From an uncultured Olsenella sp. (GTDB taxonomy: Bacteria > Actinomycetota > Coriobacteriia > Coriobacteriales > Atopobiaceae): a DNA stretch of 64,000 nt. The stretch is from the NCBI GenBank assembly GCA_949291295.1, contig CASEVE010000013.1:1-64000 (forward strand), in the 5' to 3' direction. Position numbers and translations under genes: made by a program. The notes under the pieces are model-generated. The model was not told the origin of the DNA and did not search any database. It was given only the letters and a program-made list of their open reading frames with translations. This document shows, piece by piece, positions 22,660 to 43,433 of this stretch (its first letter is position 1; the number at the start of each line of letters is the position of its first letter).

Positions 22660-22860
22660 AGGACAAATCGGGCAGCGGCGCGTCCCTCTCGCCGGGCGTC
22701 CCCGGGTGCGGGGCCGTGGGGCGTCCTTCTCGCCGGGCGTCCCCAAAAGTGGAGCCGTGGCGCGAATCACCCTCTGTTTTGCGCCACAGCCTCATTTTTG
22801 GGAACATATTGCGCCTTCTGCGCGCCACAGCCTCGATTTTGGGAACGCACTCCCGGGGCA
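22660..22860. repeat. Two-family GC-rich repeat block upstream of rpoB, 41-bp spacing
   Basis: Between the rpoB promoter and the rplL terminator. One element (CGTCC-x-TCTCGCCGGGCG) occurs at 22681 and 22722, 41 bp apart. A second (GCGCCACAGCCTC, then an A/T tract and GGGAAC) occurs at 22781 and 22822, also 41 bp apart. No open gene with coding character was seen in 22524-22879. Confidence 0.75.
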
Positions 22861-28950: not shown

Positions 28951-29025
28951 TGGAGCCGGCAGAGGGAGTCGAACCCCCAACCCACGGTTTACAAAACCGT
29001 TGCTCTGCCATTGAGCCATGCCGGC
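28951..29025 (-). tRNA. tRNA-Thr (TGT anticodon)
   Basis: 75 nt with encoded CCA. Acceptor stem GCCGGCA pairs with TGCCGGC. Anticodon loop TTTGTAA gives TGT. It stands 204 bp upstream of tRNA-Tyr with the promoter at 28797 between them, so it is probably transcribed separately. Confidence 0.96.
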
Positions 29026-29063
29026 AGGTGCGTGTACATGATAGCGGGTTGGGCGCGCAGGCG

Positions 29064-29609
29064 CTAGCCGCGAAGCATTTGCCAGAGCTTCTCGCGTGCG
29101 GCAGGATCGATGCGGTCCTCAAGGCGCATGTGCTGCGTCTGGCGCTCGGCGTTGGCATGCTCGTATTCCGCGGCAAGGGCGCCCACGTCACTTACGAGCA
29201 CGTCGCTCGAGATACGCGTCACCGGAACGCCACCCACCGTTGCGCGAATGGTGTTGTCAGAGGTCACCACCGTCACGACCCGCGGAGCGAGGCGCGCCTC
29301 CGTGACCAGGCGCTCGATCACCGTGTCGGCGCTCTCGCCGGCGGGCGAGAAGACCATGCGAACGCCGGCCTTGGAGAGGTCCGGCCGCTCCGGGGACACG
29401 TTGCCCGCGGCATCAAAGACGATTACGGGAACGTAGCGCCCCTTTGCGTAGGCGGCAACGTCGGCAACCAGAAGGTCGCGCGCCTGCTCGAAGGGGTCTC
29501 CCTCTGCGGTCTCGTCCATGCGGGCGAGGTAGCGCTCGGACTTGTAGATGACGTTGTAGCCGTCCACAACGAGAAGCTCGCTGGGCTCGGATGCGCGCGA
29601 GCTAGGCAT
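29064..29609 (-). CDS. NYN/PIN-type RNase, YacP (Rae1) family
   Basis: 181-residue protein of the NYN (PIN-fold) nuclease family. In Bacillus the YacP homologue Rae1 cuts mRNA on ribosomes, and it too sits next to an rlmB-type gene. It begins ELLVVDGYNVIYK with the first metal-binding Asp, then VIVFDAAGN, ADTVIERLV and VVTSDNTIR. The ATG at 29609 overlaps the rlmB stop by 8 bp, which argues for coupled translation. Function in this organism is inferred. Confidence 0.88.
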   Translation of the reverse strand: MPSSRASEPSELLVVDGYNVIYKSERYLARMDETAEGDPFEQARDLLVADVAAYAKGRYVPVIVFDAAGNVSPERPDLSKAGVRMVFSPAGESADTVIERLVTEARLAPRVVTVVTSDNTIRATVGGVPVTRISSDVLVSDVGALAAEYEHANAERQTQHMRLEDRIDPAAREKLWQMLRG

Positions 29610-36395: not shown

Positions 36396-38981
36396 TCACT
36401 CTCCCGCACTCAGCAGGCCACCCGCGCCCGCAGCCCCACGAGACGGCTCGGGCAGGGCCGAGAAGTCCGGGGAGACCATGCTCTCGCGGCGACGCGGCGC
36501 GGGAATCTCGCCGGTCGTGTGTTCGAAGACGAGCTTGCCGTCCTTCTCGTCCACGCGAATGATCTCTCCGCGGTGCCAGAGGTTCTGGAGCAGCTCCTCG
36601 GAGAGCGGGTCCTCGATGAGCGTCTGGATGGCGCGGCGCAGCGGGCGCGCGCCGTAGACCGGGTCGGCGCCCTCCTTGGCCACGAGGTCGCGCGCGGCGT
36701 CCGTGAGCTCGATGGACATGCCCTGCGCGATAAGGCGCTCGCGCAGGTCGGCCACCATGAGCTCCACGATGCCGCGCAGCTGCTCGGACGTGAGGGAGTT
36801 GAAGACCACGACCTCATCCACACGGTTCAGGAACTCCGGGCGGAAGTGCTTCTTGAGCTCGGACATCACGCGGCTCGTGATCTCCTTGTCGGAGAGCCCG
36901 CCCGCGCCCTGGGCCGAGAAGCCCATGGTGGTGGTCTGCGCGATGTCGCGCGCGCCGATGTTGGACGTCATGATGATGACGGTGTTGGAGAAGTCCACGT
37001 GGCGGCCCTGGCCGTCGGTGAGGCGGCCCTCCTCCAGAATCTGGAGCAGGACGTTGAAGACGTCGGGGTGCGCCTTCTCCACCTCGTCGAAAAGCACGAC
37101 GGAGTAGGGACGGCGCCGCACAGCCTTGGTGAGCTCGCCGCCCTCGTCGTAGCCAACGTATCCCGGAGGCGCGCCGACGAGCTTGGAGACGGTGTGCTTC
37201 TCCATGAACTCGGACATGTCAAAGGAGATGAGCGCCTCCTCGCTGCCGAAGAGGAACTCGGCGAGCGCCTTGGCGAGCTCGGTCTTGCCCACGCCGGAGG
37301 GCCCGAGGAAGATGAACGAGCCGCCGGGGCGGCGCGGGTCCTTGAGCGGGCTGCGGCTGCGACGGATGGCCTTGGCGACCTTGGTCACGGCCTCGTCCTG
37401 GCCAACGACGCGCTCGTGGAGCACGTCCTCGCAGCGCAGCAGCTTGGAGGCCTCGGCCTCGGTGAGGCTCGAGACGGGCACGCCGGTCATGGAGGAGACC
37501 ACGTCGGCAATGTCCTGCTCGTCCACCGTGACCACGTTGGCGGCAAGCTCCTCGCGCCACGCGCTCTCCAGCTCGTCGCGACGGGCCACGAGCGCCTTCT
37601 CCTCGTCGCGCAGGCGTGCGGCCTCCTCAAACTCCTGGGCGGCCGCGGCGGCGGACTTCTCCTCGCGCACGCGGGCAAGGTCGGCGTCGGTCTGGGCAAT
37701 CTCGGGCGGCAGCGTCATCTTGTGGACGCGCGTGCGAGCGCCGGCCTCGTCGAGCACGTCGATGGCCTTGTCCGGCAGGAAGCGATCCTGGACGTAGCGG
37801 CTCGAGAGGGTGACGGCAGCCTGGATTGCGGCGTCGGTGTAGCGCACGTTGTGGTGCTTCTCGTAGCGATCCTTCAGGCCCTCAATGATCTTGAGGGTGT
37901 CCTCGGGGCTGGGCTCGCCGATGTTGACCGGCTGGAAGCGGCGCTCAAAGGCGGAGTCCTTCTCCACGTGCTTGCGGAACTCCTCCGCCGTGGTGGCGCC
38001 AATGACCTGAATCTCGCCGCGCGAGAGGGGCGGCTTCAGGATGGACGCGGCGTCGATGGAGCCCTCGGCCGAGCCCGCGCCAATGACGGTGTGGATCTCG
38101 TCGATGAAGAGGATGTCGTTCTCGGACTCCTCGAGCTCGCGCACGACCTTCTTCATGCGCTCCTCAAACTCGCCGCGGTACTTGGAGCCGGCGACAAGGC
38201 TTGCGAGGTCGAGCGTCCAGATTTGCTTGCCGCGCAGGATGTCCGGCACGTTGCCGCTGGCGATGAGCTGGGCCAGGCCCTCCACGATGGCGGTCTTTCC
38301 CACACCCGGGTCGCCCAGGATGAGCGGATTGTTCTTCTGGCGGCGCGCAAGGACCTGCATCACGCGCTCGATCTCGCGGTCGCGGCCGATGACGGGGTCG
38401 AGCTTGCCGTCCGCGGCAAGCTTGGTGAGGTTGCGGCCGTACTGCTCGAGGACGGAGCCCTCGTCGCCCTGCTGCTGTGGGCCGGGACCACCGAACCCGC
38501 TCATGCGAACGTCCGCCGTAGCGGGCTGCTGGGCAGACTCGGTGCTCTTGCCCGCAAGCTCGTTCACGGCGTTGCGAACCGCGTCGCCCGAGACACCCAT
38601 CTGGCGCAGGGCGTCCATGGCCCGGCCGTTGCCCTCGGCGACGATGCCCAAGAGCAGGTGCTCCGTGGCAATGTAGGTCTGGCCATGGGTCATGGTCTCG
38701 CGATAGGCACCCTCGAGCACGCGCTTGGCGCGCGGCGTGAAGGGGATGTGGCCGCCCGGCACGGGCTCGCCGTCTCCCTCGGTGAGGCTGCGAATGGTGG
38801 TGAGCGTCTCGTCGTAGGTCACGTCGAGCTTGGCGAGCGCCTGCGCGGCCACGCCTTCGCCCTCCTTGATCAAGGCAAGAAGCAGGTGCTCCGTGCCCAC
38901 GTACATCTGCCCGAGGTTGCGCGCCTCGTCCTGGGCGAGGCTCATCACCTTGCGGGCCTTGTCGGTAAACTTCTCGAACAT
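36396..38981 (-). CDS. clpC: ClpC-type AAA+ unfoldase of the Clp protease
   Basis: Unfolds substrates for ClpP and works in protein quality control. It is 861 residues. The double Clp-N repeat starts [14 protein letters not shown]1 has Walker A GDPGVGKT; a UVR-like coiled coil ([18 protein letters not shown]) is the ClpC hallmark; D2 has GPSGVGKTE and [13 protein letters not shown]. No CtsR or McsAB genes are adjacent. A perfect TATAAT lies at 39018-39023 on the minus strand, 36 bp before the ATG, without a good -35. Confidence 0.96.
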
Positions 38982-39152
38982 CTGTGGGCATTCCTTCCAT
39001 ACCGTACAGGTTTCGCAATTATAGCTTGTACCCCGCCCGTGCCTGCCGCAAACCCTTAGGCGACGCTTCGTTTCTTGCAGGACCGCCGAGCAGCAGGCAC
39101 TCCTCGGCAGCGGAGCCGCCTCGGACGCAGGCGAGAAGTGCGACGCGGGCTC

Positions 39153-39339
39153 CGGGCGGGCGGCGCTTCTCGCCGGCACTTGAGGAGTGCCGGCTGCGGG
39201 AGGCTTTGGGGCCGGCACTCCTGCCCGGGCGCCGGGACGGGTCCGGCACCTCTCGGCACTGCCGCGCCCATTTGCCGGCACTTCTCGCCGGCACTCATGG
39301 GTGCCAGCAGTCTCCGGCGCCCCGTCGAGAAGTGCGGGC
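39153..39339. repeat. 187-bp direct repeat, copy A
   Basis: Matches 40822-41008 in the same orientation with only three mismatches and no indel. Inside are several CGGCACTTCTCGCC palindromic units spaced about 52, 31 and 32 bp. The two copies flank the nuclease-like gene at 39408-40520. The rest of 39024-39407 holds more degenerate units and no gene. Confidence 0.95.
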
Positions 39340-39407
39340 GGGCAGCGCCGGCGCCGGCGAGAAGTGCGGCTCAGACAGGAAGCACGAACGACAAGAACGC
39401 CCGCGCC

Positions 39408-40520
39408 TCACCAACCTGGCTTCTCGCTCGGAACGGCAGGTAGCATCTGACTGAGAAGAACGCGTCGCATATGCAACGCCCCTTCATCCGAAAGCGCCCT
39501 GAGCACTCGCCGCTCGTAGTCTGCACCCTCGTGCTTCGCCAGGGAATGCGCGATGCGCGCCAAATAGCCGTTAAGCGCGGGCAACGTCTTCACGTTTCGA
39601 TAGCTTGCCGGAAAGACCGAAATCCCGCATGTCTGGTAGTCCCTGATGCGCCGCTGGTCTTCCTCAAAGGCCTCCTCGCTCACGTGCTCTTTTCCGTTGT
39701 ACTCAGACGCTGTTCCGTGCTTTGGCCAATAGAAATCTGGGCGCATGCGCTCGTGCTCGATGAGGCCACGGACCTCCTCGGGCCACACTATGGGCTCGTT
39801 CTCCAGAAACGCCGGGGTCTCTATGCCCCCAAGGGCAAAATCCAGCTTGAACGCAAAGGACAAGAGCGTCTCTTCCGGAGAGCCGGACCCTCCCTGAACC
39901 AGCTCGGCCGCCCGGCGCGCCCGCTCAAGCCCCCTGATTCTCGTTGCCTCGGCAAGAAAAGCCACGAGCTCATCGGGCGTTGCAACTGGATCGAGCTCAA
40001 AGGCGCACTCGCCAAACGCGGGGTTATCCGGGTCGCGCGCGTAGAGGCCGCAGGCCTCCATCGGAAACGTAAGCAACCTGAAAAATGCCGCGTTTTTTGT
40101 AAGGGCGCCGCGCTTTACGAGTCCAGAAAGGCACTGCTCCATACGAAGGAGGCTCAGGCCCGGGGCCTCGACAAACAGCCGGAGAGATCCGCTGCCAACG
40201 TAGTCCCACGGCGTTCCGTCGGCATGAATCACCTCGAGAAACGAGGATTCCGGCAGCGCCGAGAGCAGAGAGCGAGACCTGATTGACGCCGACTCGCTTC
40301 GCGCCCCTCGCGAGAAAAACGTGAGCTCCAAGGGGTGTGCCGGCGAAAGCTCCCCCAGCCCCTCAGGCAGCGATGCTCTCAGCGCGCCTAGGTCAAGCGG
40401 ACCCTGATCCGCCGACAGGTGCGCCCGCTCCGCCGGAACAAGCAGAAGGTCGGGATCTCGCCGCGCAGCGCGGGTGAGCTTGAGCGAATCCGACCCAGCA
40501 AGAAAGATTTCTTGTCCCAT
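39408..40520 (-). CDS. Uncharacterised protein with a Vsr/DUF559-like nuclease domain
   Basis: 370 residues, not recognised by name. The first 270 residues have no family I can identify. The C-terminal part (about 275-345: MRPDFYWPKHG, then SEYNGKEH, then EDQRRIRDYQTCGISVF) resembles the Vsr/DUF559 branch of PD-(D/E)xK nucleases, with D and E in place but E-x-N where E-x-D or E-x-K is usual. Similar proteins with RxDLxWP...EYDS are frequent in Coriobacteria as I recall. RBS GGGAGG precedes ATG at 40520. It is enclosed by 187-bp direct repeats, which suggests an accessory, mobile or recombination-prone unit. Confidence 0.7.
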   Translation of the reverse strand: MGQEIFLAGSDSLKLTRAARRDPDLLLVPAERAHLSADQGPLDLGALRASLPEGLGELSPAHPLELTFFSRGARSESASIRSRSLLSALPESSFLEVIHADGTPWDYVGSGSLRLFVEAPGLSLLRMEQCLSGLVKRGALTKNAAFFRLLTFPMEACGLYARDPDNPAFGECAFELDPVATPDELVAFLAEATRIRGLERARRAAELVQGGSGSPEETLLSFAFKLDFALGGIETPAFLENEPIVWPEEVRGLIEHERMRPDFYWPKHGTASEYNGKEHVSEEAFEEDQRRIRDYQTCGISVFPASYRNVKTLPALNGYLARIAHSLAKHEGADYERRVLRALSDEGALHMRRVLLSQMLPAVPSEKPGW

Positions 40521-40821
40521 ACGACCTCCCGTTCATTCTGAACACGAAGGTATCAACTCGTGCTTGCACGAATCTTCCCCTCAGATGCGCCGAGCCTACC
40601 GCTAGCTGACACGGCTGCCACTGAGCGAGCATTGCGGCAGCTCAGAAGGCTTGTCTACCACGGGACACACAACATCTTTCTTTTAATCTTTTGGGAAAAG
40701 GACACAGTCTTTCCATAGAGAGTGGTCCAGGCGCAGATAAGGCGCCGAGCAGTTTTGGGCGGCGCTTCTCGGCAGCGGAGCTGCCTCGGGCTGCCGGCAC
40801 TTCTCGCCGGCGGAGCTGTCT
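40521..40821. other. Upstream region of the nuclease-like gene, no gene seen
   Basis: About 300 bp, partly more AT-rich than the surroundings. It contains a 14-bp perfect palindrome TCGTGC-TT-GCACGA at 40558-40571, 38 bp before the start codon, which could be an operator. No coding region or recognised promoter pair was found. Confidence 0.5.
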
Positions 40822-41008
40822 CGGGCGGACGGCGCTTCTCGCCGGCACTTGAGGAGTGCCGGCTGCGGGAGGCTTTGGGGCCGGCACTCCTGCCCGGGCG
40901 CCGGGACGGGTCCGGCACTTCTCGGCACTGCCGCGCCCATTTGCCGGCACTTCTCGCCGGCACTCATGGGTGCCAGCAGTCTCCGGCGCCCCGGCGAGAA
41001 GTGCGGGC
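40822..41008. repeat. 187-bp direct repeat, copy B
   Basis: Second copy of 39153-39339, offset by exactly 1669 bp. Mismatches are at 40829, 40919 and 40994. It ends 38 bp before the lysS terminator. Confidence 0.95.
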
Positions 41009-41046
41009 AGCACGCAAGCGCCGGCGAGACGCGCCGGCAAAGAAAT

Positions 41047-41074
41047 GGCGGCCGGCACAGAAGTGTCGGCCGCC
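41047..41074 (-). terminator. Terminator of lysS
   Basis: GGCGGCCG pairs with CGGCCGCC around a stem interrupted by one mismatch; on the minus strand ATTTCTTT follows. It lies 45 bp past the lysS stop. Confidence 0.7.
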
Positions 41075-41118
41075 AGGTTGACGGATTTGCTCGCCGAGAA
41101 GGCGCGAGGGACGGCGCC

Positions 41119-43344
41119 CTACTTGCCAAACGTGTCGCGGTCCGGAGCGATGGCCTTCATCGCGTCGATGGTGCGCGAGAAGAGCTCGTCGAGCTCCCAG
41201 CCGCAGAGCTCGGCGCCCTTGCGGATAACGTCGCGGTTGCAGCCGGCGGCAAAGCGCTTGTCCTTGAACTTCTTCTTGAGCGACTTCACCTCGAAGTCCA
41301 TGACGGACCTGCTCGGGCGCATGATCACGGCCGCACCGATGAGACCCGTGAGCTCGTCGACGGCAAAGAGGACCTTCTCCATGGGGAGCTCGGGCGCCGG
41401 CAGCTCGGGGTTGTTGTCGGAGTTGTGCGACTGGACGGCGCGCACGAGATCCTCGGAGGCGCCCGCCGCACGCAGGAGCTCGGCCGCGTAGACCGTGTGG
41501 TTGGCCGGGTCATCCGCGTGCTCCTCCCAGTCGAGGTCGTGCAGGATGCCCACGACCTCCCAGAAGTCAGCGTTCTCGGGATCCATCTCCTCGGCAAAGA
41601 CGCGCATCACGCCGCCCACGGTCTCGCCGTGCTCGATGTGAAACTCCTCGTGGTTGTGCTCGGCGAGAAGCGCGAGCGCGGCGTCGCGGTCGATTCCGGC
41701 AACAAGCGCCGCCGGAGCCTCCGCCGCAGCCGCCGTGACCTTCTCGGAGTCCTCGGCGATAGCGTCCACGGAGGCGGCGGCGTTATCCGTCACCACGCCC
41801 GCAACCTGGGCCTCGATGTCCGCGCGCGTGATGGTCTCAGGCTTCATGGCCGGGAAGAGCAGCACGTCGCGGATGGCGGGCTGGTCGCAGAAGAGCATGA
41901 TCATGCGGTCGATGCCGTAGCCGATGCCGCCCGCCGGCGGCATGCCATACTCGAGGGCGCGCACGTAGTCGTAGTCGTAGCCCATAGCCTCGTCGTCGCC
42001 CATGCCCTTGGCGGCAACCTGCTCGGCGAAGCGGCCGGCCTGGTCCACGGGGTCGTTGAGCTCGGAGAAGGCGTTGGCGTACTCGTGGCCGGCAATGACC
42101 AGCTCAAAGCGGTCGGTGAGGCGCGGGTCCTCGGCCTTGCGCTTGGAGAGCGGGGAGACCTCCTCGGGGTAGTCGCACACAAAGGTGGGGTTCACGATGG
42201 TCTTCTCGCCCAGCTCGTCGTAGAGCTCAAAGAGGAGCTTGCCGGCGCCCCAGTTGGGCTGGACCTCGATGCCGTGCTTCTCGCAAAGCTCGCGCAGGTG
42301 CTCGATGGGGGTGTCCATCGTGAGCTCCTCGCCCACGCACTCGGAGGCAATCTCGGAGAGCGGGCGGCTTGCCCAGGTGCCGGACATGTCGATCTTTTGG
42401 CCCTGGAAGGTGATGACCTCGTGGCCCTCCTCGCAGCCGCAGACCTCGCGCGCGATGGCCTTGAACAGGCCCTCGGAGAGGCGCTTCATACCCTCGAGGT
42501 CGGAGTAGGCGCAGTAGGCCTCCATCGAGGTGAACTCAGGGTTGTGCGTGAGGTCCATGCCCTCGTTTCGGAACTGGCGGCCGATCTCAAAGACGCGCTC
42601 CATGCCGCCCACGATGAGGCGCTTGAGCGGCAGCTCGGTGGCAATGCGCAGGTAGAAGTCGCGGTCGAGCGCGTTGAAGTGCGTCACAAACGGACGCGCG
42701 TTGGCGCCGCCGAGGATGGCGTGCATCATCGGCGTCTCGACCTCCATGTAGCCCTCGGCCTCCATGTAGCGGCGGATGAGGGAGATGATCTGGCTGCGCT
42801 TGCGGAAGACGTCGCGGACCTCGGGGTTCATGATGAGGTCCACGTAGCGCTGGCGATAGCGGACCTCACGATCGGTGAGGCCGTGGAACTTCTCGGGCAG
42901 CGGGCGCAGGGACTTGGAGAGCACCGTGAGCTGCGTCGGGGAGACGGAGAGCTGACCGCGGCGCGTACGCATGACGGTGCCCGTGGCGCCCAGGATGTCG
43001 CCAAGGTCAAGGTTGGCGAGAAGCGCCCAGCCCTCGTCGCCCAAAACGTCATGGCGACAGAAGAGCTGGATGGAGCCGGAGACGTCCTCGAGCACGATGA
43101 AGGCGGCCTTGCCCTGCTTGCGCAGCGCTCGCACGCGGCCGGCAACGCTCACCACGTCCTCGGTGTCGGCCCCCTCGGGGAGCTCTGCGTACTTCTCCTC
43201 GAGCTCGCCGGCGTGCGCCGTGACCTCAGAGGAGATGGGATACGGGTTCACGCCCGCGTCGATGAGAGCCTGGCGGCGCGCGCGGCGCATCGTGCGCTCG
43301 TCGGTGGCTGCTGCGGCCGCGCTCGCGGCGGTGTTCTCTGCCAT
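41119..43344 (-). CDS. lysS: Lysyl-tRNA synthetase (class II) fused to an HD-superfamily hydrolase domain
   Basis: 741 residues; ordinary bacterial LysS is about 500. Residues 1-502 are a complete class II LysRS: OB-fold anticodon domain, motif 2 (FRNEGMDLTHNPEFT) and motif 3 (GGIGYGIDRMIML). An Ala-rich linker of about 45 residues leads to an HD domain (about 550-741) with HIEHGETV, GILHDLDWEEH, NHTVYAAELL and a later His/Asn-rich SHNSDNN. It resembles stand-alone HD proteins with MEKVLFAVDELTGLI and MRPSRSV. One continuous frame. ATG at 43344 has AAAGGGA upstream. The HD substrate is unknown. Confidence 0.95.
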   Translation of the reverse strand: MAENTAASAAAAATDERTMRRARRQALIDAGVNPYPISSEVTAHAGELEEKYAELPEGADTEDVVSVAGRVRALRKQGKAAFIVLEDVSGSIQLFCRHDVLGDEGWALLANLDLGDILGATGTVMRTRRGQLSVSPTQLTVLSKSLRPLPEKFHGLTDREVRYRQRYVDLIMNPEVRDVFRKRSQIISLIRRYMEAEGYMEVETPMMHAILGGANARPFVTHFNALDRDFYLRIATELPLKRLIVGGMERVFEIGRQFRNEGMDLTHNPEFTSMEAYCAYSDLEGMKRLSEGLFKAIAREVCGCEEGHEVITFQGQKIDMSGTWASRPLSEIASECVGEELTMDTPIEHLRELCEKHGIEVQPNWGAGKLLFELYDELGEKTIVNPTFVCDYPEEVSPLSKRKAEDPRLTDRFELVIAGHEYANAFSELNDPVDQAGRFAEQVAAKGMGDDEAMGYDYDYVRALEYGMPPAGGIGYGIDRMIMLFCDQPAIRDVLLFPAMKPETITRADIEAQVAGVVTDNAAASVDAIAEDSEKVTAAAAEAPAALVAGIDRDAALALLAEHNHEEFHIEHGETVGGVMRVFAEEMDPENADFWEVVGILHDLDWEEHADDPANHTVYAAELLRAAGASEDLVRAVQSHNSDNNPELPAPELPMEKVLFAVDELTGLIGAAVIMRPSRSVMDFEVKSLKKKFKDKRFAAGCNRDVIRKGAELCGWELDELFSRTIDAMKAIAPDRDTFGK

Positions 43345-43364
43345 GGTGTCCCTTTCAGATAGAA

Positions 43365-43398
43365 GCGCCCCGCACCTGCTGCCGCAGACACGGGGCGC
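43365..43398. repeat. Hairpin between greA and lysS
   Basis: GCGCCCCG at 43365-43372 pairs with CGGGGCGC at 43391-43398. On the minus strand TTCTAT follows, then the lysS ribosome binding site. It could be a weak terminator or attenuator ahead of lysS. Confidence 0.5.
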
Positions 43399-43433
43399 CA
43401 CGCTTACTGCTTGTCGGAAAAGGAAGTGCCGAC

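Follow-up and report, generated by a model that had tools for sequence, protein, structure and literature searches.

A Vsr-fold nuclease-like gene of Atopobiaceae and its lineage-specific palindromic flanking repeats: a putative counterpart of RAYT/REP pairs

The window, a 64,000-nucleotide stretch of a contig from an uncultured Olsenella sp., carries a nuclease-like gene between lysS and clpC, and elements built from a short repeated word bracket the gene. The gene and the word were associated and had co-diversified: flanking words differed between gene lineages, further elements were dispersed and were present or absent at orthologous sites, the gene had flipped orientation, and the words were conserved above the spacers. 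The reading held here, with slightly better than even confidence, is that gene and repeats form a co-evolving pair resembling RAYT/REPIN systems, with an unrelated nuclease whose Vsr-like domain most likely cuts or nicks the elements. We infer that the protein binds the word and, with less certainty, that it mobilises the elements through its nuclease activity.

The locus and the repeated element

Two same-direction repeats of 187 bp enclosed the gene (Table 1). In the pairwise comparison, they were gap-free at an offset of 1669 bp and differed at three positions (39160/40829 G/A, 39250/40919 C/T, and 39325/40994 T/G); the offset, the number of mismatches, and the lack of gaps were as the sequence-only reading had described them. 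The one gene it placed between them, with its own ribosome binding site, was found as a single long ORF having an ATG start and GGGAGG upstream. The full repeat occurred at two places only in the 2.28-Mb assembly; partial matches at C23:9020 and C12:16378 were solo elements of like type. Each repeat consisted of one whole element of ~137 bp plus ~19 bp and ~31 bp. The palindromic character claimed for the repeats was upheld, with four strand matches to element-type palindromes observed in the window against 0.18 expected from shuffles. Rfam gave no match over 38500–41600.

Table 1 Features of the window at and around the nuclease-like gene
Feature	Position	Strand	Basis or remark
Nuclease-like gene, 370 aa	39408..40520	-	ORF list; AF2; structural alignment
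Direct repeat, clpC side (3' of the nuclease-like gene)	39153..39339	.	Repeat comparison
Direct repeat, lysS side (5' of the nuclease-like gene)	40822..41008	.	Repeat comparison
Complete element, clpC-side repeat	39172..39308	+	Read against the relatives' 136-bp architecture; P1 39172-39194; inner words ~39211, ~39243, ~39274; P2 39287-39308
Complete element, lysS-side repeat	40841..40977	+	Relatives' architecture; P1 40841-40863, P2 40956-40977
Extra degenerate word copy beyond the 187-bp repeat	39125..39143	.	Repeat family D2
Extra degenerate word copy beyond the 187-bp repeat	39351..39369	.	Repeat family D2
Tandem pair of 35-bp word-bearing units beside the lysS-side element	40760..40829	.	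Repeat family D3
clpC, 861 aa	36396..38981	-	Neighbour kept in all 16 gene-bearing congeners
lysS with C-terminal extension	41119..43401	-	Conserved neighbour, opposite side from clpC
Empty site	29026..29070 (approximate)	.	Orthologous place in G012 (C6:45131) has a solo element; here few bases between conserved flanks
tRNA-Thr	28951..29025		Adjoins the empty site

The element was composed of short words (GCCGRCACT) at fixed spacing, with 6–7 words per element. Its anatomy was read from 16 elements of equal length (136 bp) found in G012, in the window's genome (G000), and in relatives. Along these 136 bp, a two-word palindrome was followed by a 16-nt spacer, a word with a small stem, a further word, a spacer of ~18 nt, another word, and a second palindrome; both window copies shared this plan, and a 123-bp form had 13 bp fewer. 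At fixed length, identity between copies was 79% in the words and 41% in the spacers, the expectation from composition being 26%. No GTAG-type tetranucleotide was present beside the palindrome in the 136-bp consensus. The spacers of the window's two copies were nearly identical, unlike those of most flanking pairs, and these copies may therefore have been homogenised or duplicated recently.

Position 5 of the half-sites varied without covarying with its partner (GC in 7, GT in 4, AC in 3, and AT in 2). Hairpin-only recognition was judged unlikely because the paired positions varied independently; reading of the half-sites by a protein would fit these data better than a strict hairpin.

The predicted protein

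The window protein had no sequence match in Pfam (empty up to E 10), NCBIfam, PADLOC, or PDB, and the plasmid and viral collections contained no relatives of it. The AlphaFold2 model, built with 28 homologs, reached a pLDDT of 91 and a pTM of 0.88. In the model, residues of about 212–332 form a nuclease domain of the Vsr/I-Bth0305I fold with predicted nuclease activity, followed by conserved C-terminal helices. Using VIA-align, residues 212–332 were matched to NGO0050 (3hrl, Z 9.8), the catalytic domain of the homing endonuclease I-Bth0305I (3r3p, Z 9.7), and Vsr (1cw0, Z 8.5), the alignments spanning about 94–102 residues. Foldseek alone returned no PDB match under E 0.001; the Vsr fold came from the second aligner. 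A Vsr/DUF559-like C-terminus had been proposed earlier, and it stood as Vsr-like by fold but not by Pfam: the gathering scores of DUF559 (PF04480) and MTES_1575 (PF18741) were not reached by the window protein (no match), and paralogs gave weak PF18741 matches of 14–17 bits against a cut-off of 38.2. Residues E217, D262, E273, H279, and D288 were invariant in 28 close homologs, and we take them to be the motif named EDxHD. Y1_Tnp (Pfam) was absent from the 28 homologs, and the window protein is not a RAYT.

The assignment of the N-terminal half (residues of about 1–209) as AbiEi-antitoxin-like is tentative because Z was below 8. The best match in the model was AbiEi (6y8q; Z 6.1, or 6.3 when the N-terminal half was predicted alone), and the next was Rv2827c (1zel; Z 4.7). 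The alignment to AbiEi covered 6y8q 64–195, the C-terminal domain only, with the wHTH outside the match and with Z values (6.1–6.3) too low to trust alone. No AbiEii nucleotidyltransferase toxin operon was found, the nuclease-like gene standing alone between lysS and clpC.

Proteins of the AbiEi family bind repeated inverted DNA sites, the antitoxins recognising multiple 23-bp inverted repeats and autoregulating (PMC7319586), and an operator role of the elements is therefore possible, also alongside mobilisation. Taken as the explanation, the elements would be sites at which the AbiEi-like protein controls its own gene and the neighbours of solo sites, the nuclease domain would do otherwise, and spread would come from chance or other transposition. 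The AbiEi resemblance of the N-terminal half, the conservation of words far above spacers, and the independent variation of half-sites at position 5 agree with this account, which is nevertheless unlikely: elements lie at both gene ends, the 3' end included, many solo copies follow stop codons directly, the repeat-reading wHTH of AbiEi is missing from the match (AbiEi 64–195), and presence/absence at orthologous sites exceeds the expectation for a fixed regulon.

Flanking words across relatives

Sixteen congeners, counting the window's genome, had the gene in the lysS–clpC gap; the relatives named were Atopobiaceae throughout, Olsenella and Thermophilibacter foremost. The gene was oriented as in the window in 7 of the 16 and inverted in 9, and elements with a lineage-specific word flanked it in all 16 lysS–clpC genomes with a close homolog, in either orientation. 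In most relatives, the flanking elements at this locus were inverted, not direct, copies. On the tree, the orientation must have changed three times or more and the site twice, among lysS–clpC, argD, and argF–trpS (sites were named from neighbouring sequences read by eye), and inheritance of the gene was mostly vertical, at a fixed site. The lysS–clpC gap was without the gene in G024, G016, G008, G001, G011, and others.

Separately, other palindromic words (GTCCCGGAATCGCCGAC; TTGGGTACTTTTTTG; ACATCGTCTGTATTTTT) were seen in the gene-less lysS–clpC gaps of L077, L080, L082, L086, and L089. An acyltransferase-like gene (named by eye) lay between lysS and clpC or beside lysS instead in L083, L087, and L089.

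Excision or amplification of the cassette by recombination between the repeats, one of two possibilities raised by the sequence-only reading, is physically possible, but what was seen instead was the cassette inverted in place. No relative had an empty site with a single clean repeat scar: the 135-bp gap of G016 held remnant words, and the 282-bp gap of G024 held no element. A long-repeat cassette that simply recombines (RecA-dependent excision, inversion, amplification), with the nuclease uninvolved, would account for the 187-bp near-identical repeats, the same-site inversion in relatives, and a G030 contig that breaks inside an element, as repeats do. It leaves unexplained the lineage-specific words, their conservation over the spacers, the distant solo copies, and the same pattern around divergent homologs elsewhere, and is considered improbable.

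Still less probable, to the point of being hardly credible, is a free-standing selfish gene resembling a homing endonuclease, which would cut element-free sites, have its cassette copied in, and leave solo elements as scars. The best fold matches do include I-Bth0305I and a phage homing endonuclease, occupied and empty lysS–clpC sites coexist, and two site changes appear on the tree; yet the gene is inherited mostly vertically at a single site, solo elements have the full architecture and are not scars, and relatives are absent from the viral and plasmid collections.

Both gaps at the lysS–clpC loci were rich in a repeated word that varied by lineage (GCCGRCACT, GCCCGCACT, GGCCGCACT, CAGGTGTAT, or GGTGCAC); in L026, the word was weaker. 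Written on one strand, the words had a common core close to RCACYY and a variable 5' side. Homologs with 28–44% identity, at other loci (argD, argF–trpS) and in other genera, had different words on both sides, so that the same kind of gene was indeed found between similar repeats elsewhere, each time with its own word. Neither opposite pattern, all relatives carrying the gene at this place without flanking repeats or repeats of this kind never linked to the gene family, was what the comparison gave.

Flanks were tested by aligning 700 bp upstream to 700 bp downstream in both directions. The median score was 76.5 for 40 homologs and 26 for 787 control ORFs, and 34 of the 40 (85%) lay above the control 95th percentile (p 1e-20 for the 40 against the 787; the homologs are interrelated, so p is indicative). 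Among gap-matched controls (n = 134, gaps of at least 150 bp on both sides), 7.5% exceeded the same cut-off. The gene is thus flanked by cognate palindromic repeats, as RAYT (TnpA-REP) genes are. One of the strongest outliers among these controls (L195:15228–16397, G000 C9) was a gene flanked by repeats with a score of 148; read by eye, its product looks like a complete AbiEi-wHTH joined to a DUF559-like part, and it lies outside the family model used.

Several paralogs and distant relatives examined in detail were flanked on either side by interrupted palindromes of their own, such as CGTTGTGTACAC, CCGATACCTCATAACCC, and CGAGTGTTTGAAAGTCGG; by score, L006, L007, and L012 had no flanking repeats. 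The control value was exceeded by 12 of 19 sampled family members and by 6 of 21 sampled Vsr/AbiEi-like relatives, the latter drawn largely from other families of the order. Flanking repeats as a property of all Vsr/AbiEi-like relatives were rejected on the latter count. Most relatives in other families of the order had no flanking repeats, and the partnership therefore characterises part of the family.

Genome-wide counts were obtained from searches and from samples, the sampled genomes being represented by 400 kb each. Palindromes of word A (≤2 mismatches) occupied 27 places in G012, 11 in G015, 9 in G000, 6 in G003, and 5 in G005, and reversed-pattern controls gave 0. About 15 elements were present in G012, apparently intergenic, and many solo copies were located directly after the stop codons of other genes. 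The words were nearly confined to genomes that carried the corresponding gene. Among 31 genomes, word D was confined to G013 and G014, the two with the matching gene clade, and word B to G009, G010, G017, G019, and G020 (gene-bearing, matching clade) plus G006, where a contig ends in an element beside lysS and the clpC contig likewise begins in word DNA; reversed-pattern controls gave 0 here too. Solo elements were also present in a few genomes without the gene at lysS–clpC, e.g., G004, G002, and G026.

Some solo copies were absent at orthologous places in relatives with good flank identity, and such empty sites were found in G000 (Table 1), G023, and G026. At one site, 3' of a tRNA cluster, G000, G004, and G012 carried word A, G013 and G014 carried word D, and G007, G010, and G018 were empty. 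No target-site duplication was established at the elements. As in RAYT/TnpA-REP systems, the repeats were dispersed and dependent on the gene lineage, with low copy number and a few exceptions. The copy number (a few to ~15) was far under that of E. coli, which has 69 or more REPINs per genome (PMC8049555). Identity of the element as a high-copy REP was rejected because, where 400 kb each of G023, G026, and G045 was sampled, the word occurred essentially only next to the gene.

The elements could be MITEs or REPs of the ordinary kind that some other enzyme mobilises (e.g., a Y1 RAYT), the gene lying among them by chance or at a hotspot. Y1 transposase genes in 28 of the 31 congeners and the abundance of other REP-like repeats speak for this, but G005 and G020 have the gene and the elements with no Y1_Tnp match in a search of these assemblies. 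Every lineage of homologs carries a distinct word at its gene, unlike a chance arrangement, and the gap-matched controls rarely reach such scores; the chances of this explanation are rated as low.

Other repeats were observed as well. Positions 22736–22860 of the window hold a solo remnant that belongs to a different word family (GTTCCCAAAA...GTGGCRC), and the gene of that family lies past the window end (G000:C13:71440–72567). Abundant palindromes, GAAGGGACAGTCCCTTCGTA in G000 samples L182–L201 and CAAAAGGGGACTGTCCCCTTTTG in G007 samples L142–L161, are probably REPs of Y1 RAYTs; G000 had three Y1_Tnp matches. The motif GGCGAGAAG[AG]AC = GT[TC]CTTCTCGCC occurred 24–87 times per 400 kb in all five sampled genomes (L102–L201), often right after stop codons. 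At G000 C14:38387, C29:13242, C13:57367, and C2:33137, GCCGGCATTTCTCG recurred every 42 bp (every 84 bp at C2) as a tandem repeat of a different kind.

Comparison with known systems and a proposed mechanism

The second possibility raised by the sequence-only reading, a nuclease and palindromic repeats forming a pair like RAYT and REP, held as an association, given the near-universal flanks in close homologs, the divergent homologs' own words, the tracking of gene by word, and the presence/absence of solo copies; cleavage and mobilisation by the protein are presumed. REP/REPIN systems with RAYT (TnpA-REP, Y1 HUH) are alike in cognate palindromic flanks, lineage-specific sequence, solo copies, and conserved words with variable spacers, as well as in different words at orthologous genes and mostly vertical inheritance (PMC3686654, PMC8049555). 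RAYT orthologs flanked by different repeats (PMC3686654) are a close parallel. In contrast to those systems, the enzyme here combines a Vsr-fold nuclease domain and an AbiEi-like half in place of Y1 HUH, and the element is ~137 bp long with 6–7 words, low copy number, and no GTAG-type tag.

The AbiEi and Rv2827c antitoxins (type IV toxin–antitoxin) resemble the N-terminal half in fold (6y8q Z 6.3, 1zel Z 4.7), but the match is to the AbiEi C-terminal domain, here without wHTH and toxin partner and with a nuclease domain fused. Vsr and I-Bth0305I (EDxHD) and DUF559/MTES_1575 share the fold (Z 8.5–9.8), conserved acidic and His residues, and the weak PF18741 matches of paralogs, whereas no curated model was reached, the gene is unlinked to mismatch repair or introns, and cognate elements bracket it. 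Like MITEs, the elements are short and non-coding, have terminal palindromes, and are absent from relatives' orthologous sites, but no IS that shares their ends and could be their parent was seen, and the words track the nuclease gene. Searches of an open-licence literature library turned up nothing that ties nucleases of this type to REP-like repeats.

In the favoured reading of a co-evolving gene and repeat, the protein would recognise the short lineage-specific word, repeated 6–7 times at fixed spacing in each ~137-bp element, two elements bracketing its own gene and a few to about 15 more lying between other genes. The Vsr-like nuclease domain would most likely cut or nick DNA at the elements, and repair would then copy, invert, or homogenise them. 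The element would spread slowly, and the gene would pass mostly vertically at its fixed site.

For the family, a wider proposal is made with confidence a little short of even: the AbiEi-like/Vsr-like nucleases of Atopobiaceae may be an independently evolved, non-HUH counterpart of RAYTs that reads a co-diversifying double-stranded word, brackets its own gene with cognate elements, and drives slow spread of those elements, with several paralogs per genome that each have a private word.

Among bacterial enzymes linked to populations of small palindromic repeats, RAYT with REP is the best-known example, and such pairs raise the question of why they persist. If the present reading is true, a second pair would exist, with an unrelated nuclease, several private word families in one genome, and natural word switches between sister species, and the question of persistence would become testable by comparison. 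The words would also provide an unstudied family of proteins with a ready set of candidate recognition sites.
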